Source of the DNA: Candidatus Yanofskybacteria bacterium RIFCSPLOWO2_02_FULL_44_18 | GTDB lineage: Bacteria; Patescibacteriota; Minisyncoccia; 2-02-FULL-40-12; GWA2-44-9 | Reading direction: 5' to 3' | NCBI GenBank assembly: GCA_001794755.1 | Contig: MGKT01000009.1 | Span: forward strand, 1 to 36,481 | DNA: 36,481 nt | In this document: one piece after another, positions 17,832-29,842 of the stretch | Position numbering within the stretch: position 1 is the first letter of the stretch | Layout of the letters: each line of letters begins with the position of its first letter | Notes under the pieces: generated by a model | The model's input: only the letters and a program-made list of their open reading frames with translations | Database searches by the model: none | What the model was told of the DNA's origin: nothing | Program-made: the position numbers and the translations under genes

Positions 17832-19025
17832 TCAGACTCTAAAATTTTTCAGAAACTCTTTTTTGAATTCAAAAAATTTACTCCTTTTTATTGAGGCGCG
17901 GATTTGGGAAAGAAGAGAGTTGAAAAATTTAATGTTGTGAATTGTGGCAAGTCGTTGCCCTTCTAATTTTTGTTGAGGTGTTCCTTTGAAAAGTTTGTGA
18001 ATCTTATTTTTTGAATAGATGCTCTTGCGAATATCGTAAAAGCCATTTTTGGCGTAAATCCGGCCGTGGCGTGCTTCACGCGTGGGAATAACGCAGTCGA
18101 ACATATCGACGCCGTTTTCTACGGCCGTGAAAATATCTTCCACCTTGCCGATACCAAGCAGGTGCCGCGGTTTTTTATCCGGCAAGTGGGGGATAATCCA
18201 TTTCAAGGTTTTTGACATTTCGTCTTTGCCGAAAGAGCCGCCGATGCCAAAGCCGTCAAACGGAAGCGACGCAATATATTTGGCGCTTTTCTGGCGCAGG
18301 TTTTTGTATTTTCCGCCCTGGATAATGCCAAACAATAACTGGCGGGGGTCATAATGTTTCAGACTCTCTTTAGCCCATCGATGCGTGCGTACCAGAGCTT
18401 CCTGGTTGTATTTTTTTCCGTCCAAAGGCGAGGTGCATTCGTCAAAGGCAAAGATAATGTCGGCGCCGATCCGGCTCTGCAATTCCATCGAGAGTTTTGG
18501 TCCAAGAAATCTTTTTTTACCGCCAACCGAAAAATATACCCCATTGTTTGTTATTTTAATATTTTTTCTTTTTAAATTTTTAATTTTCTCGGCCCGTTCT
18601 GACAATATTTTACCGACCTTATTTTCCAAGCCGAAGCCGAGCGAAAAAACCTGGAATCCACCGCTGTCGGTCATAGTGGGCATCATTATTTCCAGTTTGT
18701 TTGATAGGAATGAATGAGGCGACTGATCGCCGTTCGGAACTGCATAAAAAGTCTGTTGACTTTTTTGCTCTTTCTCGGCTACCCGTCTCCGAGTGTTCCT
18801 CAGGCGACCAGTCGACTCGTTTTGGGTGACATTCTGCCAAAGATGGTACGTGTTAGCGATGACGACTTGCGTACCGGTTTTTTTAATATCCAACGGTTCA
18901 AGTGTTTTTACGCTTCCATGCGTGGCAACGATAACATAAGACGGCGTTTTGATGACGCCGTGGGGGGTTTTCAGTAATCCGAGCCGGGCTCGGGAATTTT
19001 TATCTTTTTGCAATATTGTAAACAT
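17832..19025 (-). CDS. tgt: tRNA-guanine transglycosylase with in-frame palindromic insertion and no zinc cysteines
   Basis: Exchanges guanine-34 of GUN-anticodon tRNAs for queuine or preQ1. It has 397 residues. Core motifs are present: TDSGGFQVFSLG, IIFAFDECTSP, LLFGIIQGG, GFGIGGSFG and MFDCVIPTREARHGRIY (nucleophile Asp). Two oddities are seen. First, between NTYHLW and TDSGGFQ about 34 residues (70-103) are encoded by a palindromic repeat element at 18716-18818, in frame. Second, the C-terminal zinc site (CxCxxC plus His) is missing: the only Cys are in FDECTS and FDCVIP, and the segment before ATIHNI is shortened. It may be active without zinc or impaired. It ends 2 bp from the convergent DUF5652-like gene. 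Confidence 0.93.
   Translation of the reverse strand: MFTILQKDKNSRARLGLLKTPHGVIKTPSYVIVATHGSVKTLEPLDIKKTGTQVVIANTYHLWQNVTQNESTGRLRNTRRRVAEKEQKSQQTFYAVPNGDQSPHSFLSNKLEIMMPTMTDSGGFQVFSLGFGLENKVGKILSERAEKIKNLKRKNIKITNNGVYFSVGGKKRFLGPKLSMELQSRIGADIIFAFDECTSPLDGKKYNQEALVRTHRWAKESLKHYDPRQLLFGIIQGGKYKNLRQKSAKYIASLPFDGFGIGGSFGKDEMSKTLKWIIPHLPDKKPRHLLGIGKVEDIFTAVENGVDMFDCVIPTREARHGRIYAKNGFYDIRKSIYSKNKIHKLFKGTPQQKLEGQRLATIHNIKFFNSLLSQIRASIKRSKFFEFKKEFLKNFRV
18716..18818 (-). repeat. Palindromic repeat element, copy 1, inside tgt
   Basis: Outer arms at 18716-18731 and 18803-18818 are complementary at 14 of 16 positions, with one G-T wobble. The core at 18742-18768 is the family hairpin (GCA-AAAAAGTC, loop AACA here, GACTTTTT-A-TGC on the minus strand). 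An inner hairpin CTCGG/CCGAG lies beside it. It is read through in frame by tgt. The loop change AGCA to AACA is synonymous there (CAG to CAA). Confidence 0.85.
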
Positions 19026-19030
19026 ATATT

Positions 19031-19053
19031 AAAAAGGCCGCCTATGAGGCAGC
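19031..19053 (-). terminator. Intrinsic terminator of the orphan gene at 19042-19491
   Basis: On the minus strand GCTGCCT, loop CAT, AGGCGGC, then CTTTTT. It overlaps the TAG stop and lies just before the tgt start, so tgt may depend on read-through or its own promoter. Confidence 0.65.
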
Positions 19054-19491
19054 CGCGTAACGTCTTAAATCTTTGGTCATATTTTCATTGCATGCCTTGA
19101 ACATGTCATTCACAAATTTCAGAGTTTCCTCCATTTCAGATGGCTCGATTGCCAAATCATCCCTCAGAGATTTAAATGCGGCTTTCCTGTCCAGAATATA
19201 CCTATTTAAATCCTCGATTGTTTTAAGGGTTATATCTCTACGCTTCAGAACAAAGCGTATACAAGCGGAATGAAGAGCCACGCAGGTGTCGAGATTATAT
19301 CCTTCGGGGATTTCCAGAATTTTGCACTGTTCTGTAATCAGCATTTTACCTGCCAGGATTGCATCAACAAGCGTGACGCAATCATTGAGCGCCGACGGCA
19401 TTCTTGTTTCCAGATGCGATCGCTCGCCTCTTAATTTTGCCTTGATAATAGATGATACCACGATGAGGGACATGGAAAGATGCGGAAACAT
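19042..19491 (-). CDS. Hypothetical helical protein (orphan unit)
   Basis: 149 residues, all predicted helical, no membrane segment after the mildly hydrophobic start (MSLIVVSSIIKA). It has a repeated look of charged helices (LKTIEDLNRYILDRKAAFKS, MEETLKFVNDMFKACNE). I recognise no family. The start is fixed by GGAGG 6 nt upstream and a promoter at 19516-19544. A terminator covers the stop. It carries the GCCAGTACCTGGAGGAA leader shared with the orphan genes at 381, 7243 and 15935. Confidence 0.75.
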   Translation of the reverse strand: MFPHLSMSLIVVSSIIKAKLRGERSHLETRMPSALNDCVTLVDAILAGKMLITEQCKILEIPEGYNLDTCVALHSACIRFVLKRRDITLKTIEDLNRYILDRKAAFKSLRDDLAIEPSEMEETLKFVNDMFKACNENMTKDLRRYAAAS

Positions 19492-19515
19492 ACATTCCTC
19501 CAGGTACTGGCTGAT

Positions 19516-19544
19516 AATATACCATCAAAATGACATGTTTTCAA
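19516..19544 (-). promoter_or_regulatory. Sigma70 promoter and CCAGT leader of the orphan gene at 19491
   Basis: On the minus strand TTGAAA (19539-19544), 17-bp spacer, TATATT (19516-19521), then 24 nt to the ATG with CCAGT and GGAGG. Confidence 0.7.
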
Positions 19545-19557
19545 GATAATTTACGGA

Positions 19558-19695
19558 GCCGGTATGGCATCTGAGAAACGCCCGGAGGACGACTGGTGGT
19601 CGGATAAGGTTCCGGTGCGAAGCCCGGAATCTCTGTCGAGGTAGAGCAAAAAAGTCAGCAGACTTTTTATGTGGTTCCGAAGATGCCATACCGGC
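19558..19695 (+). repeat. Palindromic repeat element, copy 2
   Basis: Perfect 15-bp outer arms, GCCGGTATGGCATCT (19558-19572) and its complement (19681-19695). The family hairpin begins at 19646 (GCA, AAAAAGTC, AGCA, GACTTTTT). A larger variable internal part makes this the longest copy (138 bp). It fills the space between divergent genes. Confidence 0.85.
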
Positions 19696-19760
19696 GAAGT
19701 GTGAATGGTTTTGGATATGAGCGAATCGTGTGATATACTTTTTTCATTCAACATTAATAT

Positions 19761-19991
19761 ATGAATAACATTCTTATATACACGACGCCGACCTGTCACT
19801 TCTGTCACATGGCCAAAGAATATTTTAAATCCAAGGGTATAAAATACGAGGAAGTTGACTTGGCTAAGAATCCCGAAAGGGGACAGGAGGTAATCCAGAA
19901 AAGCGGACAATTTGGAGTGCCGGTTATAGAAATAAACGGAAAAATCGTCATCGGCTTTGACCGTCCGAAGATTGACGAGTATTTAAAATAA
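19761..19991 (+). CDS. Glutaredoxin-like protein (NrdH/YruB type)
   Basis: 76 residues, a minimal thioredoxin fold. The active site is TTPTCHFCHMAKEYF (CxxC at about 12-15), the cis-Pro segment is FGVPVIEINGK, and IGFD precedes the last helix. It probably reduces disulfides, with the TrxB-like reductase at 23882 as a possible electron donor. A -10 box TATACT (19734-19739) lies 21 nt upstream and there is no Shine-Dalgarno. SOD follows after 1 bp, suggesting an oxidative stress operon. Confidence 0.9.
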   Translation: MNNILIYTTPTCHFCHMAKEYFKSKGIKYEEVDLAKNPERGQEVIQKSGQFGVPVIEINGKIVIGFDRPKIDEYLK

Positions 19992-19992
19992 T

Positions 19993-20607
19993 ATGTCGAA
20001 AGAAATTAAACCATTGTCTTTTAAGACCGATTGCATTAAAGGTATTTCCCAAAAAACCATTGAAATTCACCATGGAAAGCTTTATGCAGGTTATGTAAAT
20101 AAAACTAATGAAATCAGCGAAAAACTCGGAGAACTGCGAAAAAGTGGAAAGGTTACGGGAAATCAAATCTATAGTGAATTGAGAGGACTTAAATTGGGCG
20201 AAACTTTTGCGCGTAATGGCTCGTATTTACATGAGAATTATTTTGCGATTTTGGGCGGTGATGGGGTGCCAACAGGGGAAGTAAAAGAAGCTATAGAAAA
20301 AAAGTTTGGCTCAATGAATGATTTCTTAGAATATTTTTCCCAATGTGGAATGGCGGCTCGCGGATGGGCGATTTTAGCGTGGGATATGAATGAACAAAGA
20401 TTGATGCAGTATAATTGCGATGCACAAAATCATGGGGGTGTCTGGGGGTGCATTCCGATTATTGCTATGGATGTTTATGAACATTCATATTTTATCGATA
20501 CTGGTTCAGATCGAGCTGCTTACATTAAGGCATTTTTTGAAAATCTTAACTGGAATAAGATAAATCAAATCTATCTGCAGGCTAGAGAATTTTCTCTAAA
20601 TTTATAA
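19993..20607 (+). CDS. Fe/Mn superoxide dismutase family protein
   Basis: 204 residues. Metal ligands expected for the family are visible: His in IEIHHGKLYAGYVN, His in GSYLHENYF, Asp and His in IIAMDVYEHSYF. ARGWAILAWD corresponds to the GWAW strand. The second-sphere Gln appears in DAQNHGG, the position typical of Mn enzymes, but metal choice cannot be settled by eye. The gene looks more AT-rich than its neighbours, with different codon choice, which may reflect transfer. It is cotranscribed with the glutaredoxin gene (1-bp gap). Confidence 0.9.
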   Translation: MSKEIKPLSFKTDCIKGISQKTIEIHHGKLYAGYVNKTNEISEKLGELRKSGKVTGNQIYSELRGLKLGETFARNGSYLHENYFAILGGDGVPTGEVKEAIEKKFGSMNDFLEYFSQCGMAARGWAILAWDMNEQRLMQYNCDAQNHGGVWGCIPIIAMDVYEHSYFIDTGSDRAAYIKAFFENLNWNKINQIYLQAREFSLNL

Positions 20608-20618
20608 TACATTATCAA

Positions 20619-20641
20619 GGGGCGCCAACGGGCGCTCTTTG
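20619..20641 (+). terminator. Putative terminator after SOD
   Basis: GCGCC, loop AACG, GGCGC (20622-20635), flanked by G-T/G-C pairs, then CTTTGATTTT. Moderate strength. Confidence 0.55.
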
Positions 20642-20678
20642 ATTTTATGTGGGAAATATCATAGAATCGCAGGGATTT

Positions 20679-21794
20679 ATGAATTCTGATTTAATCCAAT
20701 ACATTCAAGAAGCCAAGGTATCTGGGATGTCGGACGGCGAAATCCAGGCCGAATTGCTTTCAGTCGGCTGGAATCATGGCGATGTTCGACAGGCATTTTT
20801 GGATAATATTTCTCCGGAACTGGAAAATCCCCCAATTGAACAATCGGAAAAGATTGAAGCCGTTGTCTCCGTTCGAGGGTTGATAAAGCACTACGGCTCT
20901 GTTCGAGCCGTTGACGGCATTGATTTCGAAATTCCCAAAGGCAGTATTCTGGCCCTTTTGGGACCAAACGGGGCTGGCAAGACGACATTAGTAAGGATGC
21001 TTGGCACCTTAATCACGCCCGACAGCGGCCAAGCTTTAATCGGTGGACACGATGTTATTAAAAGTCCTGACGATGTTAGAAAAATTATCGGTCTGACTGG
21101 ACAATTTTCGGCCGTGGATATGGTTTTGACGGGCAGGGAAAACCTTGTAATGATTGGCCGCCTTTGCCATCTATCCAAACTGGAAGCGGAAAACAGGGCC
21201 AGGGAATTGCTAATCCGCTTCGGATTGTCCGATGCCGCCGACAGGCAGGTTAAAACATATTCCGGAGGCATGATGAGGAGATTGGACGTGGCGGCAAGCA
21301 TCATTGCTCATCCCGAAGTTCTTTTTTTGGATGAGCCGACGACCGGGCTCGACCCCCACGGCCGAATCGAACTGTGGCACATAATAAAGGAATTGGTGGC
21401 GAAGGACGTAACAGTTCTTCTGACCACGCAATATTTGGACGAGGCCGATCATTTAGCCGATCAGATAGTGGTTATCGACAAAGGAAAAATCATCGCCAAA
21501 GGAACATCCCAGGAACTAAAAGCTCAAGTCGGAGGCGATGTTTTGGAACTCCATTTAACCGACCATTCTCAAGCCCATCGGGCCGCGGCCGCGATTGAAG
21601 CTTTGGGAATTGAGAAACCCAGAATCGAAGAATTAGAGGCGCACATATTCATGCCTGTCCGCGGCGGAGCTTCAGTTTTAGCCGATGCCATACGTCGTCT
21701 GGATCAAGCAAGAATTGATTTAGCCGATATCGTCTTGAGGCGGCCCACACTTGACGATGTGTTTCTTAAACTGACCGGCCATGTCGCCGGATAA
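20679..21794 (+). CDS. ABC transporter ATP-binding protein (DrrA-like) with N-terminal UBA-like module
   Basis: 371 residues from the ATG at 20679. A GTG at 20649 would add ten residues across the terminator tail. Residues about 3-40 (LIQYIQEAKVSGMSDGEI, LLSVGWNHGDVRQAFLD) form the small three-helix UBA-like module frequent at the N-terminus of Parcubacterial membrane proteins. The ABC domain follows with GPNGAGKTT (Walker A), YSGGMMRRLDVA (signature), VLFLDEPTTGLD (Walker B) and a DrrA-type C-terminal domain ending RRPTLDDVFLKLTGH. It pairs with the permease encoded 3 bp downstream to export an unknown substrate. Confidence 0.93.
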   Translation: MNSDLIQYIQEAKVSGMSDGEIQAELLSVGWNHGDVRQAFLDNISPELENPPIEQSEKIEAVVSVRGLIKHYGSVRAVDGIDFEIPKGSILALLGPNGAGKTTLVRMLGTLITPDSGQALIGGHDVIKSPDDVRKIIGLTGQFSAVDMVLTGRENLVMIGRLCHLSKLEAENRARELLIRFGLSDAADRQVKTYSGGMMRRLDVAASIIAHPEVLFLDEPTTGLDPHGRIELWHIIKELVAKDVTVLLTTQYLDEADHLADQIVVIDKGKIIAKGTSQELKAQVGGDVLELHLTDHSQAHRAAAAIEALGIEKPRIEELEAHIFMPVRGGASVLADAIRRLDQARIDLADIVLRRPTLDDVFLKLTGHVAG

Positions 21795-21797
21795 TTT

Positions 21798-22550
21798 ATG
21801 AAGATTATTTCCGAAACTCTGATATTGGTGAAGAGAAGTTTAATCAGATACACTCGCGTGCCCCAGCTTTTGGTTTTTTCGACGATTCAGCCGGTGATGT
21901 TCGTTATTCTCTTTGCTTATGTTTTCGGCGGGGCGATAAAAACGAGCATAAATTATGTTGATTATCTTTTGCCGGGGATTTTGGTTCAAACGACTTTATT
22001 CGGGGCGATGATGACGGGTATCGGACTGGCGGACGATATCTCGCACGGCATGATAGATAGATTTCGATCTCTGCCGATGTCCCGCGGCGCGGTTCTGGCT
22101 GGAAGAACAATTTCTGATTTACTAAGAAATGTTTTTGTGATTTTTTTGATGGTCGGCGTGGGCTATATTATCGGCTATAGATTTGAGGGGACATTCATGG
22201 GCGCGCTCGGCGCCTTGTTTCTGATGCTGTTATTCGGTTTTGCATTTTCATGGATATCGGCCCTAATCGGAATTGCGGTTAAAGACGTCGAAACCGCCCA
22301 ATCAGCCGGATTCATATGGGTTTTCCCTTTGGCATTCATATCCTCGATATTCGTTCCTGTTGAAGGCATGCCGAAAATATTCCGATTATTCGCCGAAAAC
22401 AGCCCGATTACATACACCGTTGATGCGGTCAGGCGATTTTCCGTGAATCAGCCCGTCGATTACACATTCTGGGCTTCCATCATCTGGCTTGCCGCCATTT
22501 TGATTACTTTCATCCCTCTCGCTGTCAGGCAGTTCCGGAAAATATCGTAA
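21798..22550 (+). CDS. ABC-2 type permease (DrrB-like)
   Basis: 250 residues with six membrane helices in the ABC-2 layout. The N-terminal amphipathic segment is LILVKRSLIRYTRVPQLLVF. FAYVFGGAIKTSINYVDYLL precedes an extracellular loop, GLADDISHGMIDRFRSLPMS is the coupling-helix region, and the conserved FVPVEGMP/FAENSPITYTVDAVR lies near the end. It forms the exporter with the ATPase encoded immediately upstream. The substrate is unknown; relatives export drugs, lipids or polysaccharides. It converges on the PMT-family gene with a 5-bp gap. Confidence 0.92.
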   Translation: MKIISETLILVKRSLIRYTRVPQLLVFSTIQPVMFVILFAYVFGGAIKTSINYVDYLLPGILVQTTLFGAMMTGIGLADDISHGMIDRFRSLPMSRGAVLAGRTISDLLRNVFVIFLMVGVGYIIGYRFEGTFMGALGALFLMLLFGFAFSWISALIGIAVKDVETAQSAGFIWVFPLAFISSIFVPVEGMPKIFRLFAENSPITYTVDAVRRFSVNQPVDYTFWASIIWLAAILITFIPLAVRQFRKIS

Positions 22551-22555
22551 TTTGA

Positions 22556-23857
22556 TTATCTCCAGCTGGGGAGCCAGACGCGGGCGTTGTATTCGCGCGG
22601 GGAGAGATTTAAGCCATAGCTTAAAGGCGAGAAATATATAAAACTAACAGCGCTGGCAAAAATCAAAACCGGGGCTATCAGTTTTTTGTGCTGACTCTGA
22701 TCAATTAAATACGCCAATATCAATATGGCGAAAATGAAGGCAGAGAGGTAGTGGTATAGAAACATTACTCTCGGTATGCCGATGAAAGGCAGCAGATTTA
22801 AACCGACTCCGCCCAGAAGAATAATCAATATTTTGCGAGATTGGCCCGCACTCCATATCATGGAAATCAAGGCGTACATCAGTGCCGCGGTTGTTGACCA
22901 CCATATGATGGGATTGCCGAGAAAATATATTCTCTGATCGCCATTAACCCAGTAAAATATCGGCCGGGACATAAATGGCCATGTATACCATTTTGATCCG
23001 TAAGGATGAGTTGCTGTAAGCCTGGCGTTCGAAGTGTACATTTCCTCGTTTAATTCGGTGAATTTTTGAAAAAGATTACTTTTTTTAATCTCTCCATTTT
23101 TTTCATAAGCGCTGCCGGCCAGAGTTTTTTGAAATTCCAGACTCATGAATGCATCGCCGGCTCCAGATTTATTTAAAAGAGAAAAATGTATTGCAAATAC
23201 GGAAAAATATATTGCCGCGGGAATGAACAAAAAGGCGGTCATTTTTGGAATCAACGTCCTCCAGTCCCTGTCAGTATAAAAATAAATTGATTCCAGGATA
23301 AGGGGCAGGGCTAAAAAAGTTAAGCCGGTCCACTTGACCGATGCCGCTAAACCGCCAAATACAGCCATCCATACATATTTACGCTTGAAATACATGAGCA
23401 GAGCCGAAAAACCGAATAACAAGAGAAACGCGTCCATTAATATGAATCTTGATTGGACAAGCAAAGCGTTGTCCATCGACACAAGCATGCCCGCAAAAAA
23501 AGAAGCCGTTTTGCCAAAACCTATTTGCAAAGCCAGAAGGAATATAACGATGGGTAAAAGCATGCCGGCCAAACTTGGTAGAAATCTAAGTATTAAATAT
23601 TGCTTGTCCGGGTATTTTTCACCGATGTTGGCAAACGCGTATTCGGGTTCAAAATTGAATATTTTGGCAAATCCAGCCACGATTAATTTGCCTAACGGCG
23701 GGTGAATGTCAAAAAAATATTCGTGAGTGTAGTAGCCTGTGACAAACTTGCCGAAATGGACTTCATCAAAAACCGTTTCGCTGGGATGGCCAAAGTATGC
23801 AAAGTGTATTATCGCGCTTACAATGAGAAGGGCTAGAATTAATTGCTTGTTACTCAT
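22556..23857 (-). CDS. PMT-family (dolichyl-phosphate-mannose-protein mannosyltransferase-like) glycosyltransferase
   Basis: 433 residues with about ten membrane helices (GT-C fold). The first outer loop has the catalytic DE in ETVFDEVHFGKF, then THEYFFDIHPPLGKLIVA, the PMT hallmark. VQSRFILMDAFLLLF and WTGLTFLALPL follow. The product should transfer a lipid-linked sugar to exported proteins or glycans on the outer face. It is shorter than eukaryotic PMTs because it lacks the MIR domains. Its ATG is 24 bp from the divergent reductase start, and a -10-like TATCAT ends 7 nt before the ATG. Confidence 0.88.
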   Translation of the reverse strand: MSNKQLILALLIVSAIIHFAYFGHPSETVFDEVHFGKFVTGYYTHEYFFDIHPPLGKLIVAGFAKIFNFEPEYAFANIGEKYPDKQYLILRFLPSLAGMLLPIVIFLLALQIGFGKTASFFAGMLVSMDNALLVQSRFILMDAFLLLFGFSALLMYFKRKYVWMAVFGGLAASVKWTGLTFLALPLILESIYFYTDRDWRTLIPKMTAFLFIPAAIYFSVFAIHFSLLNKSGAGDAFMSLEFQKTLAGSAYEKNGEIKKSNLFQKFTELNEEMYTSNARLTATHPYGSKWYTWPFMSRPIFYWVNGDQRIYFLGNPIIWWSTTAALMYALISMIWSAGQSRKILIILLGGVGLNLLPFIGIPRVMFLYHYLSAFIFAILILAYLIDQSQHKKLIAPVLIFASAVSFIYFSPLSYGLNLSPREYNARVWLPSWR

Positions 23858-23874
23858 GAATGTTATGATACAAT
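23847..23874. promoter_or_regulatory. Overlapping divergent leaderless promoters (trxB-like / PMT)
   Basis: Plus strand: TTGTTA (23847-23852), 16-bp spacer, extended TGA-TACAAT (-10 at 23869-23874), 7 nt to the reductase ATG. Minus strand: TATCAT (23865-23870), 7 nt to the PMT ATG. The two -10 boxes overlap, so polymerase can occupy only one. Confidence 0.45.
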
Positions 23875-23881
23875 AATTTTC

Positions 23882-24850
23882 ATGTACGATCTAATAATCA
23901 TCGGCGGATCAGCGGCCTCGGCAACGGCCGGAATATATGCGGCCAGGCGCAAACTGAATTTCAAAATTATCACCAAAGAATTCGGCGGCGAAGTGGCGAC
24001 ATCGGGCGAAATCGGAAATTGGCCGGGGCAGATTCATACTGACGGCATTAAATTAGCGCAGGATTTTAAAGATCATCTTAAGTCGTACGGCATTGATCCG
24101 GAAGAGGGCGTTTGGGTTCAGAAAGTGACCAAAACAGAAGAGGGCAATTTCTGTATTACGACAATGAAAGACAGCCAACCGGTAATAGCCGCTGACAAGC
24201 TCGACAGCGCATCGGAGCCGGCTTTTAAGTGTGATTACGAAGCCAAATCAGTGATAATCGCAACCGGCGTCCATCCGCGGATGCTGGATGTATCGGGAGA
24301 AAAAGAATATAGAAACAAGGGAGTTTCTTATTGCACGACATGCGATGGCCCGTTATTTCCGGGCAAAGTTGTGGCAACAATCGGCGGAGGCAACGGCGCT
24401 TTGGAATCGGCGATAATGTTGGCCGGTATCGCCTCGAAAGTCTATTTGATAAACAAGAATCCAAAATTCAAAGGCGACGATATTTTGGTGGAGAAAATTC
24501 AGTCTTTGCCGAATGTGGAAGTGATTTACGGCGCTCTAACCGTAGAAATCACGGGAGAGCAATTTGTGAAGGGGATGAAGTATAAAGACCAAAATGGCGA
24601 AATTAAAGAATTGCAGATTGACGGCGCGTTTATCCACATCGGCAACACTCCCAATGCCGATATCGCGCCGGATGAGGTGGAAAAAAATATGTTCGGGAAT
24701 ATAATTGTAAACGGGCGATGCGAAACGAATACCCCGGGGCTTTACGCGGCGGGCGATGTTACGGACGTTGCCTTCAAACAGATTGTCATCGCCGCCGGTC
24801 AAGGCTGTATCGCCACATTGAGCGCGGTTGAATATTTGAATAGAAATTAA
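23882..24850 (+). CDS. trxB: Thioredoxin reductase-like flavoprotein
   Basis: 322 residues from the ATG at 23882, where the FAD-binding YDLIIIGGSAASATAGIYAA begins. An ATG at 23843 overlaps the divergent gene and is rejected. The redox Cys pair is in YCTTCDGPLFPGKVV. The nucleotide-binding loop is IGGGNGALESA and the C-terminal FAD motif is PGLYAAGDVTDV. The residues that bind the NADPH 2'-phosphate in typical TrxB (HRRxxFR) are replaced by NKNPKFKG, so NADPH specificity is doubtful. NADH, a flavodoxin or ferredoxin may be the donor. The likely partner is the glutaredoxin-like protein, MsrB or an unseen thioredoxin. Confidence 0.9.
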   Translation: MYDLIIIGGSAASATAGIYAARRKLNFKIITKEFGGEVATSGEIGNWPGQIHTDGIKLAQDFKDHLKSYGIDPEEGVWVQKVTKTEEGNFCITTMKDSQPVIAADKLDSASEPAFKCDYEAKSVIIATGVHPRMLDVSGEKEYRNKGVSYCTTCDGPLFPGKVVATIGGGNGALESAIMLAGIASKVYLINKNPKFKGDDILVEKIQSLPNVEVIYGALTVEITGEQFVKGMKYKDQNGEIKELQIDGAFIHIGNTPNADIAPDEVEKNMFGNIIVNGRCETNTPGLYAAGDVTDVAFKQIVIAAGQGCIATLSAVEYLNRN

Positions 24851-24860
24851 AATAAATAAG

Positions 24861-24967
24861 AGAGCAGCGGATTGCCTTGAGGAAAAATTACGCAGCGCGA
24901 CTGGCGCGAGCTAAGCAAAAATTCAGCAGAATTTTATGCGGGTTTCCGAAAGGTAATCCGCTGCTCT
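24861..24967 (+). repeat. Palindromic repeat element, copy 3
   Basis: Outer arms of 17 bp (24861-24877 and 24951-24967) with a single G-T wobble. The family hairpin at 24915-24939 has AAAATTC, AGCA, GAATTTT, that is, both arms changed together relative to AAAGTC/GACTTT in the other copies. It fills the whole gap between the reductase and rpiB. Confidence 0.85.
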
Positions 24968-24974
24968 TGAAAAT

Positions 24975-25415
24975 ATGGTCTATATTGGCGCTGATCACAG
25001 AGGATTTCATCTAAAGGAATTAATAAAGCACTGGCTTGACGATTTGGGTTATGAATACGAGGATTTGGGAGCGCACGAGCTTGATGCTAACGATGACTAT
25101 ACTCAATACGCCAAGCTTGTGGCCGAGAGAATATCCATTAATCCCGAAGACCGGGGGATAGTCATCTGCGGTTCGGGCGTTGGAGTTGATATTACGGCCA
25201 ACCGCTTTCCCGGAGTCAGAGCGGGCTTGGCCATCGATGCTGATCAGATTCATTCCGCACGCAACGACGATGATATAAACGTCTTGGCATTGGCCGCGGA
25301 TGAAATTCCCGAAGACGAAGCCAAACATATACTTGAAACTTTTTTGGAAACCGAATTTTCCAAAGAAGAAAAATATTTAAGAAGAATAGAAGACATGGAT
25401 GAGGAAATAGAATAA
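24975..25415 (+). CDS. rpiB: RpiB-type sugar-phosphate isomerase
   Basis: Isomerises ribose 5-phosphate and ribulose 5-phosphate, or, in relatives, galactose/allose 6-phosphate. It has 146 residues, normal length. YIGADHRGFHLKE, ERISINPEDRGIVICGSGVG (active-site Cys) and VRAGLAIDADQIHSARNDDDINVLAL are the RpiB/LacAB signatures, and the C-terminal tail is acidic. It is the first gene of a four-gene sugar-phosphate operon and overlaps the next start by 1 bp (TAATG). A palindromic repeat element ends 7 bp before its ATG, so its promoter may lie within or upstream of the repeat. Confidence 0.92.
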   Translation: MVYIGADHRGFHLKELIKHWLDDLGYEYEDLGAHELDANDDYTQYAKLVAERISINPEDRGIVICGSGVGVDITANRFPGVRAGLAIDADQIHSARNDDDINVLALAADEIPEDEAKHILETFLETEFSKEEKYLRRIEDMDEEIE

Positions 25416-26041
25416 TGGAAATAATACCTTCAATTTTGACTGATGACCCTGCCGATTTTAGGGAAAAGATAAAAAAGCTTGAGCTATTGGTTAAGAGAAT
25501 CGCTATTGATGTCGCCGACGGCACGCTGACTTCGAGCGCGACAGTTTCCGGATACGCGGAATTGAATTCAATTCAAACCGATTTAAATATTGACGCACAT
25601 TTAATGGTTAGAAATCCCGCCGCAATATTGGTCGAATGGTTAAAAACCAAGGCCGGCCGTTTTTTTATTCATTCCGAATCTGACGCGGATTCCGGCCGGC
25701 TTATTGACGATATTCATTCCGCCGGTAAAAAAATCGGACTCGTCTTGAATCCGGAGACGCCGATTGAAAAAATTGAGGTTTTTTTGAATAGGATAGATCT
25801 GGTCCAATTTATGGCCGTCAATCCCGGATTTGATGGCGGCCATTTTGTGGAGAGCGTGGTTGAAAAGATAAGAAATTTCCATGATAATTATCCGGATATG
25901 CCTATTGTCGTTGACGGCTCGGTTAACCCGGATACGATCCCAAAATTGATAGCTGCCGGTGCTTCTGAATTTGTCGTCGGAAGCTATATCTGGCAATCTC
26001 AAGACATAGGGCAAGCCATTAAAAAACTCCAAAATGTTTGA
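25415..26041 (+). CDS. Ribulose-phosphate 3-epimerase-like TIM barrel with altered metal site
   Basis: 208 residues. Epimerase features seen: IIPSILTDDPADF, IDAHLMVRNP, VQFMAVNPGFDGGHF, VVDGSVNPDTI and FVVGSYIW. In canonical Rpe the first metal motif is H-x-D-x-M-D-G. Here it reads A-I-D-V-A-D-G, so one metal-ligand His is lost, and the later H-x-E segment is IHSES. The Asp of the first motif, the HLM His and the VDG Asp remain. It may be a divergent epimerase (for example on hexose 6-phosphates, as AlsE) or changed in mechanism. It lies between rpiB and the kinase, overlapping both. Confidence 0.8.
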   Translation: MEIIPSILTDDPADFREKIKKLELLVKRIAIDVADGTLTSSATVSGYAELNSIQTDLNIDAHLMVRNPAAILVEWLKTKAGRFFIHSESDADSGRLIDDIHSAGKKIGLVLNPETPIEKIEVFLNRIDLVQFMAVNPGFDGGHFVESVVEKIRNFHDNYPDMPIVVDGSVNPDTIPKLIAAGASEFVVGSYIWQSQDIGQAIKKLQNV

Positions 26042-27011
26042 TGTGATTACAATCGGTTCGGCGACTCGTGACGTATTCATTACCAGTCCCGATTTTGTCA
26101 TTCTCAAAGACGAACGTTTTAAAACCGGATCCGCTTTAGCAATGACTTTGGGTACAAAAATTCATGTCGATAAAATAGTGATGACGCCGGGCGGCGGGGC
26201 GACGAATGTCGCGATTGGCCTTTCAAGGCAAGGGTTGGCGGCTTCCTGCGTTGCTATAATCGGCAAAGATATAGTCGGTGAGGAAATAAAAAATGCTCTA
26301 AATGCGGAAAATGTCGATACCCGGTTCTTTGTTACCCATGGTGACGATTTGAGCGGTTATTCGACTATTTTATTCGATGGCGCTTCCGGCGAACGAACGA
26401 TAGTTACGTATAAAGGCGAAGGCCAGCATTTCAGCAAAGACACGGTTGACGTAAGCAAGCTCGATGCAAAATGGATTTTCGTTGACAATGTCGGAGGGAA
26501 TATCGAGTTTATCGGAGAAATAATCAACCACGCCCGAGACAGAGGCATAAAACTGGCAACAAATCCGGGCACTCTGGAACTGGCGCTGGGATTTGAAAAG
26601 TTGCAGCCGCTTCTTTCGGCTTGCGAAATCGTTTTAATGAATCAAGAGGAAGCATCGTTGTTAAGCGGCATTGATTATAACGACGAGGCGGGAATATTCA
26701 AATTCATGGACGAAAAAATCGGCGGAATATTCGTGATGACCAAAGGCCGAGCGGGGGTTTCAGTTTCCGACGGCAAAAATATATACCGGGCAGGCATTCC
26801 CGATTCACCGGTAGTTGAACGCACTGGAGCCGGCGACGCTTTCAGCTCCGGATTTATATCCGAATATATTCGAAGCGGGGATATCCAAAAATCAATTCAG
26901 ATGGCGACAGCCAATTCATCTTCCGTGGTCACCAAATATGGCCCGATTGAAGGATTGCTGAAAGAAGATAATCCGGGGCAATGGCCCTTGGTTGATGTGG
27001 AAATAAAATGA
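26034..27011 (+). CDS. PfkB-family sugar kinase
   Basis: 325 residues, ribokinase fold. The two PfkB signatures are clear: GGGATNVAIGLSRQGLAASC near the start and ERTGAGDAFSSGFISEYI (catalytic Asp, anion hole) near the end. An insertion after DVFITS (about residues 20-50) resembles the lid region. The substrate is a phosphorylated or free sugar or a nucleoside and cannot be fixed by eye. The context (isomerase and epimerase before, aldolase after) makes fructose 6-phosphate or a related hexose phosphate the best guess. The start overlaps the epimerase by 8 bp and the stop overlaps the aldolase by 4 bp. Confidence 0.88.
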   Translation: MFDVITIGSATRDVFITSPDFVILKDERFKTGSALAMTLGTKIHVDKIVMTPGGGATNVAIGLSRQGLAASCVAIIGKDIVGEEIKNALNAENVDTRFFVTHGDDLSGYSTILFDGASGERTIVTYKGEGQHFSKDTVDVSKLDAKWIFVDNVGGNIEFIGEIINHARDRGIKLATNPGTLELALGFEKLQPLLSACEIVLMNQEEASLLSGIDYNDEAGIFKFMDEKIGGIFVMTKGRAGVSVSDGKNIYRAGIPDSPVVERTGAGDAFSSGFISEYIRSGDIQKSIQMATANSSSVVTKYGPIEGLLKEDNPGQWPLVDVEIK

Positions 27012-27856
27012 CTCTCAATGAATATTTTAAAATGGCCAAAGAAAACAAAACCGCTATCGGCCATTTTAATTTTTCGACGGAAGACGTTTTGAAAGCCATC
27101 GCATCGGCGGCTAAAGAAGCGGGCGCGTCTTGCGTCATGGTCGGCACGTCGGAAAGCGAAGCTGATTTCATCGGTTTGAAAGAAGCCGTGGCAATGGCAA
27201 AAGCCGTCGAAGACGATATTCAATTTCCGGTTTTTTTAAACGCCGATCATTTTAAATCTTTTGAAAAATGCAAAGAGGCCATTGACGCCGGTTATGGCTC
27301 CGTATTGATCGACGGCTCAAAAATGTCTTTTGCCGAAAATACGGCCGTGACAAAAAAAGTGGTGGAATATGCCAAAACAATCAACTCTGACATATCCGTC
27401 GAAGGCGAGCTCGGCTATTTGAAAGGCGGTTCACTGATTCAATCAAAAATGGAAATAAGCCCTTCTGACTATACGAAAACCGAAGAAGCTCGAATATTTT
27501 GCCAGGAAACGGGCATAAACCGCCTGGCCGTGGTATTTGGAAACATACACGGCATAGTTACGGAACAGAAAGAAAAATTAGACATCGAACATTTGATGAA
27601 AATAAGATTGGCGGTTCCCGATATGTTTTTGGTTCTGCATGGGGCTTCCGGCTTGTCTGACGGGGACATAAAAGAAAGCATTGAAAATGGAATAACCAAT
27701 GTCCACTTTAACACCGAGTTGAGAGTTGCGTATTCGGAGGCGTTGAGGGAGCAATTGTCCCAAAATCCCGATGAGACGACTCCGTATAAATATCTGGCTC
27801 CGGCGGCCCAGGAGGTTAAGGACCTGGTTATTAAAAAGCTTGCACTGATGGCTTAA
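27008..27856 (+). CDS. Class II fructose-bisphosphate (or tagatose-bisphosphate) aldolase
   Basis: 282 residues, Zn-dependent aldolase barrel. Zn and catalytic motifs: PVFLNADHFKS (Asp and first His), SVEGELGYLKGG, VVFGNIHGI (His) and LVLHGASGLSD (His), then ITNVHFNTELR. It cleaves a ketose 1,6-bisphosphate to DHAP and glyceraldehyde 3-phosphate. With RpiB, the epimerase-like protein and the PfkB kinase it forms a four-step module that could carry pentose or hexose phosphates into lower glycolysis. Whether the substrate is fructose or tagatose bisphosphate is not decidable here. Confidence 0.9.
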   Translation: MTLNEYFKMAKENKTAIGHFNFSTEDVLKAIASAAKEAGASCVMVGTSESEADFIGLKEAVAMAKAVEDDIQFPVFLNADHFKSFEKCKEAIDAGYGSVLIDGSKMSFAENTAVTKKVVEYAKTINSDISVEGELGYLKGGSLIQSKMEISPSDYTKTEEARIFCQETGINRLAVVFGNIHGIVTEQKEKLDIEHLMKIRLAVPDMFLVLHGASGLSDGDIKESIENGITNVHFNTELRVAYSEALREQLSQNPDETTPYKYLAPAAQEVKDLVIKKLALMA

Positions 27857-27888
27857 TTTGTGTTAATATATCAGGGCTTTAAATATAT

Positions 27889-28602
27889 ATGTCGGCCGCA
27901 AAGACTCACAATCAAAAAGTGGAACTGGACGCCCAGGTGCGGGCGGTTTTAGGTTCGGGTGTAAAGGCCCTGCGCCGACAGGGAGTGTTGCCCGGCGTTT
28001 TGTATGGAAAAGGACTGGAATCGCTCAATCTCCAGATTCCCCTAAAAGATTTTTCCGGCGTTTTAAAATCGGCCGGTGAATCGACTTTGGTTTATCTGAA
28101 TTTAGATGGTAAAACCTACCCGACCATTATTCACGACGTTGTTTACGATCCGGTGACGGATGAAGTTCTCCATGCCGATTTTTACAAGGTCCGTCTTGAT
28201 GAAAAAATCAAAGCCATGGTTCAAGCATCATTCGTCGGTGAATCGCCGGCTGTTAGGGATTTAGGCGGCATATTCATCAGGAACGTAAATGAGCTGGAAG
28301 TTGAAGCTCTGCCCCAAGATTTGCCCCATGAAATAACGGTTGATATTTCCAATTTGAAAAATTTCGGCGACCAGATTTTAGTAAAGGATATTAAATTAGA
28401 ATCCGGTGTTAAGCTCACGGCTAGCGAGGACGAAATTGTGGGCACGGTCCAAGAGCCCATTACCCAAGAACAGCTTGAGAAAGAACTTGAAACAAAGACC
28501 AGCATTGAAGATGTGGAAGTGATTGAGAAGAAGAAACCGGAGGATGAAGCAGTTGTTGAAGAGATGCCTGAATCCGCGCCGGATAAAGAACAAGAAAATT
28601 AA
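27889..28602 (+). CDS. rplY: 50S ribosomal protein L25 (general stress protein CTC/TL5 form)
   Basis: Binds 5S rRNA. It has 237 residues: an N-terminal L25 domain ([30 protein letters not shown]) and the C-terminal beta TL5 domain ([40 protein letters not shown]). A low-complexity acidic tail follows (about 195-237, rich in Glu and Lys). The long form is usual outside gamma-proteobacteria. It is followed after 2 bp by L31, forming a translation operon. No Shine-Dalgarno is evident. Confidence 0.94.
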
Positions 28603-28604
28603 AT

Positions 28605-28853
28605 ATGAAAAATATCCATCCCCAATATTATCCCGAGGCTAAAGTTAAATGTATTTGCGGGAACGCGTGGACAACCGGCTCGACACTGCCGGAAATTAGC
28701 GTCAGCATCTGCTCATCCTGCCACCCTTTCTATACCGGCAGCGAGAAAATCGTTGACACTCGCGGCCGAGTCGAAAAGTTCAGGAAACGTCTGGAAAAAG
28801 TTTCTCTAAAGAAAACTATCAAAAAAGTCGCGGCCAGAAAAAGTAGGCATTAA
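28605..28853 (+). CDS. rpmE: 50S ribosomal protein L31 (zinc-binding form)
   Basis: 82 residues. [20 protein letters not shown] and [20 protein letters not shown] are diagnostic. CxC plus CxxC give the zinc-binding C+ form. A basic C-terminal extension (about 60-82, [14 protein letters not shown]) goes beyond the standard 66-70 residues. It follows L25 by 2 bp, and a palindromic repeat element begins 10 bp after its stop. Confidence 0.95.
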
Positions 28854-28862
28854 TATGTCTTC

Positions 28863-28960
28863 GCCCGGTGTCATCTCAGGGCGTGCATAAAAAGTCTGCT
28901 GACTTTTTTGCTCGGACTCCTCGCCAGCCGCTCGTCGTGGTCCCTTCGATGACATCAGGC
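28863..28960 (-). repeat. Palindromic repeat element, copy 4
   Basis: Outer arms 28863-28875 and 28948-28960 (13 bp, one wobble and one mismatch). The 60 bp at 28885-28944 are the exact reverse complement of 29751-29810 in copy 5. The family hairpin is at 28885-28911. It ends 7 bp before the short prfA ORF. Confidence 0.9.
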
Positions 28961-28967
28961 TCATCAC

Positions 28968-29726
28968 ATGTCATATCAATATCAGCCTCAATTAAAGACC
29001 CACAATCCGGCCAATGAAGCGATTATAGAAATAAGGGCTGGAACGGGAGGTGACGAAGCGGCCCTTTTTGCGGCCGATGTTTTTGGAATGTACCGGAAAT
29101 ACGCGTTAAGCAAGGGCTGGAAATTTGATCTTATCGATCAAAACCAAATTAGCATCGGCGGATTCAAATCCGTTACTTTTGAAATCAGGGGCGAAGGCGC
29201 TTTTACAAAAATGAAGAACGAATCAGGCGTTCATCGCGTTCAAAGAGTCCCTGCGACGGAGAAAAGCGGGCGCGTCCACACCTCAACGGTGACAGTCGCC
29301 GTTTTACCGAAGGCGGCTGAAAGCGATGTCCAAATACGGCCCGATGAGATTGAAGTTTCATTTTCCCGAGCCGGAGGCCCCGGCGGACAGAATGTGAATA
29401 AAGTGGAAACCGCCGTCAGGGTGCTCCATAAGCCGACAGGCATTGTCGTTTCATCCCGACAGGAGAGATCCCAAGCCCAGAATAGGGAAAAAGCCATGGG
29501 AATCCTAAGGTCCAAATTAATGGCCATAAAACAGGAAGAGGCGACGGGCAACATAACCGAGGAAAGGCGAAAACAAATCGGAACCGGCGACAGGTCGGAA
29601 AAAATAAGAACATATAATTTCCCCCAGGATCGGATTACCGATCACAGAATAAAAAAAAGCTGGGGGAATATGTATAAAATCCTGGCCGGCAACCTCGATC
29701 CGGTATTTGATGCGCTTGGATCGTAA
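28968..29726 (+). CDS. prfA: Peptide chain release factor 1, short form lacking domain 1
   Basis: Recognises UAA/UAG and triggers peptide release. The catalytic loop [14 protein letters not shown] (GGQ) and the codon-reading motif [15 protein letters not shown] (PAT, RF1 type) are intact, as are [30 protein letters not shown] and [12 protein letters not shown]. It is only 252 residues, against about 360 for full-length RF1: the helical domain 1 (roughly the first 90-100 residues) is absent. Homology begins within 20 residues of the ATG. Palindromic element copy 4 ends 7 bp upstream and copy 5 begins 7 bp after the stop, in opposite orientation. It could be a natural short RF1 or a gene truncated by the insertion. 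Confidence 0.88.
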
Positions 29727-29733
29727 AAGCGGA

Positions 29734-29833
29734 GCCGGCATGGTATCAGAGGGACCACGACGAGCGGCTGGCGAGGAGTCCGAGCAAAAAAGTCAGCAGA
29801 CTTTTTATGCGTGCCCACTGATGCCATGCCGGC
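29734..29833 (+). repeat. Palindromic repeat element, copy 5
   Basis: 16-bp outer arms (29734-29749 and 29818-29833) with one G-T wobble. Its outer arm GCCGGCATGGTATC resembles copy 2 (GCCGGTATGGCATC). The 60-bp core (29751-29810) is identical to the reverse complement of copy 4. It lies between prfA and rpsB. Confidence 0.9.
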
Positions 29834-29842
29834 GTAGCATGT

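Follow-up and report, generated by a model that had tools for sequence, protein, structure and literature searches.

Contig MGKT01000009.1 of Candidatus Yanofskybacteria bacterium RIFCSPLOWO2_02_FULL_44_18 (assembly GCA_001794755.1), a member of the ultra-small Patescibacteria, carries five palindromic copies of one element between positions 18716 and 29834. The locus raises the question of what these palindromes are, and how the two arms of each copy come to match one another while differing from copy to copy. All positions refer to the window, i.e., the whole stretch of 36,481 nucleotides that was analyzed. An initial annotation, drawn from the sequence alone, had spoken of a small mobile or structured element, a description that is supported by additional copies, by covariation in the core, and by an empty site in a congener that places both arms within the insertion. 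Here, we describe these palindromes as members of a previously unnamed family of short interspersed palindromes that is spread through Patescibacteria. With a probability of roughly 0.7, they are non-autonomous mobile palindromes of one family, spread by a factor acting on the folded core, with arms that are kept or re-made complementary.

A folded core and its distribution

The element is about 100–150 bp long and follows a single plan, in which the arms form a long stem (P1), and this stem leads to a three-way junction from which two hairpins, P2 and P3, branch off. The folded strand carries GCAAAAAAGTC-AGCA-GACTTTTT-A-TGC, which is the minus strand in copies c1 and c4 of the window and the plus strand in c2, c3, and c5. 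P2 contains a conserved internal loop, GGA (or GCA) / GA, and P3, with its AGCA loop and bulged A, is near-invariant. All five copies were present within a few nucleotides of where the initial annotation had placed them, and what it had said of the near-invariant hairpin, of the TTC/GAA change in copy 3, and of arms that vary yet are self-complementary proved correct. Measured against 200 dinucleotide shuffles, folding gave z-scores of −6.6 (c1), −6.7 (c2), −8.4 (c3), −4.0 (c4), and −6.0 (c5). The proposed check for covariation gave an overwhelming signal at the core pairs: across 26 diverse cores, the P1-P2-P3 model was paired in 84.5% of cells compared with 65.6% in shuffled alignments, two-sided change occurred at 21 of the 23 core pairs, and the covariation score was 0.478 versus 0.165 for shuffled and 0.059–0.174 for slid pairings. 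The copies and their hairpins, together with the one host gene in the window, are as follows.

18716–18818, minus strand: copy c1; core model match 18736–18799; within the tRNA-guanine transglycosylase (TGT) gene, in frame, with the element strand equal to the gene strand
18746–18768, minus strand: P3 hairpin of c1 (GCAAAAAAGTCAACAGACTTTTT)
19556–19696, plus strand: copy c2; core model match 19575–19678; variant in which the P2 domain is enlarged (AAGGTTCC...GGAATCTC)
19646–19668, plus strand: P3 hairpin of c2
24860–24969, plus strand: copy c3; core model match 24883–24946; P3 with TTC/GAA
28862–28963, minus strand: copy c4; core model match 28879–28944; between rpmE (L31) and prfA (RF-1)
28889–28911, minus strand: P3 hairpin of c4
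29732–29834, plus strand: copy c5; core model match 29751–29816; between prfA and rpsB (S2)
29784–29806, plus strand: P3 hairpin of c5
17832–19025, minus strand: TGT gene, host of c1 (PF01702, E 1e-88)

Copy c2 has a superoxide dismutase gene on one side and a small gene on the other, and c3 lies before rpiB, with a pyridine nucleotide-disulphide oxidoreductase-like gene as its other neighbor. The inner cores of c4 and c5 are almost identical and oppositely oriented. Within the window, c1/c2 and c4/c5 form loose minus/plus pairs. An inverted-repeat scan of the whole window recovered c3, c2, and c5 (as I1, I3, and I4, respectively). The enlarged P2 variant with AAGGTTC...GGAATC occurs in three genera: in the window (19556–19696), at loci L012 and L024 of genome G003, and at L071, L080, and L081 of G014.

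Searches beyond the window used a set with one genome per species, consisting mostly of metagenome-assembled genomes (MAGs), and the resulting genome counts are lower bounds: searches over 40 genomes used strict filters. The covariance model and wider search that the initial annotation had proposed returned more copies in the same genome, in relatives, and in the phylum; a lack of further copies, which it held would speak against the family, is contradicted by four or five on contigs C8, C2, C4, and C7 of this 631 kb genome and by those in relatives. An exact P3 search found the two copies on C8, a first covariance model, which yielded 9 copies in this genome, added those on C2 and C4, and a second model, built from 26 diverse sequences, added the one on C7. 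By the first model, 17 of the 28 genomes in the window's family were positive, with 1 to about 31 copies each, and the rest of the order gave a single weak match. With the second model, four copies came to light in a further family of the same order (G044), and the range extended to 75 of 384 genomes (51 of 294 genera) in the class and to 28 of 380 genomes in a phylum-wide draw, 15 of these outside the class. The exact P3 pattern, run over 84,980 species genomes, matched patescibacterial MAGs only (Yanofskybacteria, Wildermuthbacteria, Nomurabacteria, and other Paceibacterota); two exact-pattern scans of viral contigs, with narrow patterns, gave no match. No Rfam covariance model matched the element, and a text search whose coverage excludes subscription literature returned no paper containing both "palindromic element" and "Patescibacteria"; other literature searches likewise turned up no account of the family.

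Copy-specific arms and the strand that folds

Outside the core, conservation between copies gives way to complementarity within each copy. The median arm complementarity was 44 for a copy's own arms and 22–23 when arms were swapped between copies. The pattern is clearest in G095, a Wildermuthbacteria MAG, in which copies with identical cores show an arm identity of 0.73 between copies and of 0.93 within a copy (one arm being reverse-complemented). Indels in one arm of these copies are mirrored in the other, and two copies have 40 and 33 uninterrupted Watson-Crick arm pairs. Several copies in G025 likewise share a core and carry unrelated-looking arms. Arms of this kind are hard to obtain by point mutation and selection alone, and they suggest that one arm is templated from the other. 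Fold-back copying, template switching at quasi-palindromes, and selection are all candidate sources of arm complementarity, of which the perfect copy-specific arms favor the first two.

Several further features of arms and copy architecture were observed. A direct AGCGA / GAGCGA motif, identical rather than complementary on the two sides, lies near both outer arm ends of many copies (for example L063, L099, L018, and L040). Long copies of distant genomes have the end sequence TTTGAATTACGAAA in common (L224–L249 in G095, L272 in G129, L276 in G203). In G095, an apparent tRNA gene is followed directly by a copy whose arms are perfect over at least 33 bp (L147, 6538–6608). In G014, several loci (L072–L079) hold composite copies in which a full element sits between apparent 5′ and 3′ halves of another, and G023 contains back-to-back inverted doublets (L083, L084, L085, L086, L089) that are REPIN-like, with core starts about 128–189 bp apart.

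Mismatches in the arms indicate which strand is folded. Read on the core-sense strand, they comprise 161 G.U and 45 A.C cases (p 2e-16), and the direction of this bias was unchanged when copies were divided by the position of a neighboring stop codon (G.U:A.C of 85:16 with a stop on the right, 20:6 on the left, and 50:18 with neither). Since a strand-symmetric process would give a 1:1 ratio, the core-sense strand is the one that is folded and selected, regardless of the direction of the neighboring gene. The wobble bias also shows that selection on one strand is at work in addition to any templating. Whether the folded form is RNA or single-stranded DNA is indicated less uniformly. The wobble bias fits RNA well, whereas the seven upper P3 pairs are nearly all Watson-Crick, with G.U in 4 of about 820 cells, and this near absence fits DNA at least as well as RNA.

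Placement, insertion, and persistence

The copies are placed nonrandomly with respect to genes, here called as simple open reading frames. A stop codon lies within 80 nt on the right-arm side in 60 of 130 copies (46%), mostly 18–30 nt from the core, which corresponds to the tip of the right arm. On the left side, this holds for 16 of 130 copies (12%), and random positions give 4.7% (4–5% per side). In the commoner arrangement, with the stop on the right, the strand that folds is the antisense strand of the gene that ends there. Junctions common to different genera are modestly enriched (12 pairs with matching side and orientation out of 7224 possible, relative to a roughly estimated chance level).

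A location right behind stop codons, together with a P3 hairpin that has the layout A-run, stem, T-run, could point to intrinsic (bidirectional) transcription terminators that share a hairpin by chance. We regard this as scarcely credible, since no T-run follows the arms on either strand (at least five T in 8% and 3.5% of cases versus 4.5% in the control), reading frames stay open through in-gene copies, and a scan of the region for terminator-like structures yielded no more than one short, marginal hit, located at the end of c5 (29825–29841), and nothing at the P3 hairpins. Ordinary intrinsic terminators were rejected, as the combination of a GC stem and a T-run was not found.

The initial annotation had the copies mostly filling intergenic gaps. 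Copies c2 to c5 do lie between genes, whereas c1 lies in frame inside the TGT gene. There, it introduces no stop codon and extends the loop between the NTYHLW and PTMTDSGG motifs, a loop whose length differs among relatives. Across the family, 18 frames run open through a copy and extend for 30 or more codons to either side of it, 15 of them in the element's orientation and 3 antisense; one copy supplies two of these frames, and the orientation bias is not clean because the search selected open cases. Pfam confirms the in-frame hosts UvrA, UvrC, LeuRS, another class I tRNA synthetase, MiaA, DNA polymerase III alpha (DnaE), dihydrouridine synthase (Dus), a GT4 glycosyltransferase, methylpurine-DNA glycosylase (MPG), HhH-GPD, PMT_2, and HrcA, and three of the 18 open reading frames (L314, L244, L242) lack a Pfam match and are possibly spurious. 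In the genus of G110, G131, and G152, most of the fetched copies are genic and mostly use one reading frame, giving peptides like KAQVLQDLAQRDGASRAILQQENMRVLAKPGAK; these were the best-scoring copies, so that the in-gene share is not an unbiased estimate. In TGT and UvrA, the insertion can be placed only to within a loop, because the loops concerned are length-variable in relatives. The LeuRS of G110 (L310:501-3512) additionally has a NUDIX domain (residues 394–519, PF00293, E 1e-12) after the editing domain.

The agreement of element and gene strand in 15 of the 18 open-frame cases, taken with the RNA-like fold and the one-sided wobbles, might be read as the mark of a small self-splicing or retrotransposing RNA, in which RNA of the folded strand is mobile and in-gene copies are excised from the mRNA. 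Such an origin is very unlikely, given that frames open throughout and the recurrent frame in one genus argue for translation rather than removal, and that the three antisense cases and the selection of open frames weaken the orientation argument.

Evidence for insertion comes from an orthologous copy that lies between a gene and fba in G025 and G027. In the congener G010, the same two genes overlap as TAATG, which constitutes a clean empty site, and in the more distant G019 only a few bases separate them. The comparison of this overlap with the occupied sites implies that arms and core were inserted together, with no palindrome present beforehand. The empty-site comparison that had been proposed to define insertion boundaries thus yielded an insertion spanning both arms and the core. 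Two origins of the arms were rejected for this one site: pre-existing target palindromes, for which the TAATG overlap leaves no room at that site, and an inverted copy of the flank, as no flank-derived arm is found there. As a separate observation, AATTACGAATTACG-like tracts, which resemble the TTTGAATTACGAAA ends of long copies, occupy the same variable sites in relatives that lack the copy, namely at the fba junction in G020 and in the glycosyltransferase (GT) loop in G027.

Once inserted, copies diverge and pairing is largely retained, as seen for the fba copies of G025 and G027. Among four ortholog pairs (the fba site, LeuRS twice, and MiaA), both partners changed in 20 base pairs and a single partner in 15, with pairing kept in all of these, and 11 were broken. 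Three species differ in the upper P3 stem of the LeuRS copy (TTCTCC/GGAGAA, TCCCGC/GCGGGA, and TTCGCC/GGCGAA), so that the encoded residues are altered and the stem is kept.

Such retention of orthologous copies with compensatory changes, along with the RNA-like three-way junction, its strong covariation, and the G.U versus A.C asymmetry in the arms, would also be expected of a non-mobile, multi-copy class of structured regulatory or non-coding RNAs acting on neighboring genes, for example at 3′ ends or as antisense RNA. We nevertheless consider this explanation unlikely. Close relatives range from 0 to about 31 copies, host genes and positions differ, copies lie in frame in unrelated genes, and an empty site exists. 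Moreover, the commonest arrangement places the fold on the antisense strand of the abutting gene, so that ordinary mRNA would carry the other strand, and P3 is almost free of G.U pairs.

Propagation and relation to known palindromes

The preferred reading remains that of non-autonomous mobile palindromes. A trans-acting factor would recognize the folded core of one strand, as RNA or single-stranded DNA, and propagate it. The arms would need only mutual complementarity, which templated copying of one arm from the other could preserve or restore, either by fold-back synthesis as the element propagates or by template switching when it is replicated. A harmless insertion could then outlast the divergence of species without losing its pairing. 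More tentatively, and in our view doubtfully, only the core might be inherited faithfully, with its folded 3′ end priming arm-to-arm copying at each propagation in a rolling-hairpin-like manner without a known transposase, which would yield palindromes that are perfect yet particular to each copy.

Several points weigh against mobility or against its proposed mechanism. Mobility is deduced from the number of copies and their patchy distribution, from the near-identity of cores within a genome, and from the empty site. This site is the only clean one, as most intergenic flanks have diverged too far between species to align. Fold-back copying is suggested by the arm pattern, and the arms are only partly complementary in several genomes (G124, G019, G025), the less perfect arms of G124 and G019 being typical of their subfamily. 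No target-site duplication was found; neither an apparent repeat of 7 bp at L276 nor a weak duplication register of 8 nt held up, the latter being largely due to the internal AGCGA motif. No transposase or other mobilizing gene was identified in a search aimed at PF01797 only, and this RAYT-type family does not track copy number.

RAYTs (TnpA_REP, Y1 HUH transposases) move REP/REPIN elements, which the initial annotation had named as an analog. Like these, the element forms scattered, multi-copy intergenic palindromes, folds as a single strand, and occurs as inverted doublets in some genomes such as G023. That it is itself a RAYT-driven REP/REPIN is highly improbable. It is longer (100–150 bp rather than 20–40 bp), branched, and also present inside genes. 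PF01797 is absent by profile from the window's genome, in agreement with the initial remark that no RAYT is visible. It is missing from copy-bearing G000 and G025 (100% complete), as well as from G023 and G017, whereas G005, G012, and G006 encode it and yielded no copy. With no PF01797 in copy-rich genomes, RAYT-driven mobility was rejected.

Miniature inverted-repeat transposable elements (MITEs) were a further analog named at the outset. The short, non-autonomous inverted-repeat plan resembles that of ERIC, RUP, and Correia/NEMIS, and a subset of long copies has shared TTTGAATTACGAAA ends. Unlike MITEs, however, the patescibacterial arms are variable in most copies and mostly not conserved between them, no target-site duplication or parent transposon was found, and mobilization by a DDE transposase is unproven. 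Integron attC sites offer another possible parallel, as one strand of a structure-conserved, sequence-variable palindrome is recognized directly after stop codons. The patescibacterial element shares the single folded strand and this position, but differs in its conserved inner core, variable outer arms, and lack of a cassette array.

Rickettsia palindromic elements, also proposed at the outset, are closer than could then be told because of the in-frame copies in proteins. They measure 105–146 bp and occupy intergenic regions as well as in-frame positions within conserved genes (PMC2229807, PMC10969869); papers cited in PMC2229807 concern protein-coding palindromes in Wolbachia and Methanocaldococcus jannaschii. 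Both families consist of palindromes of about 105–150 bp that form long stem-loops, occur in many copies without a known transposase, and lie intergenically as well as in frame within conserved protein genes, in the patescibacterial case with a recurrent frame in one genus. The patescibacterial element differs in its branched three-way-junction core, its copy-specific and sometimes perfect arms, its occurrence in another phylum with a phylum-wide range, and its strong preference for one orientation just after stop codons. By size and placement, it works like the Rickettsia elements; this is an analogy, membership is not claimed, and the element is treated here as a separate and far more widespread family.

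For annotation, the finding means that inserts of about 30 residues in UvrA, LeuRS, TGT, DnaE, and other proteins derive from the element. Protein-coding palindromes extend beyond Rickettsia, Wolbachia, and one archaeon, a habit not restricted to those lineages, and the family supplies hundreds of natural insertions for comparison. With a faithful core, copy-specific arms, and one folded strand, the spread of palindromes that lack a transposase becomes directly testable.

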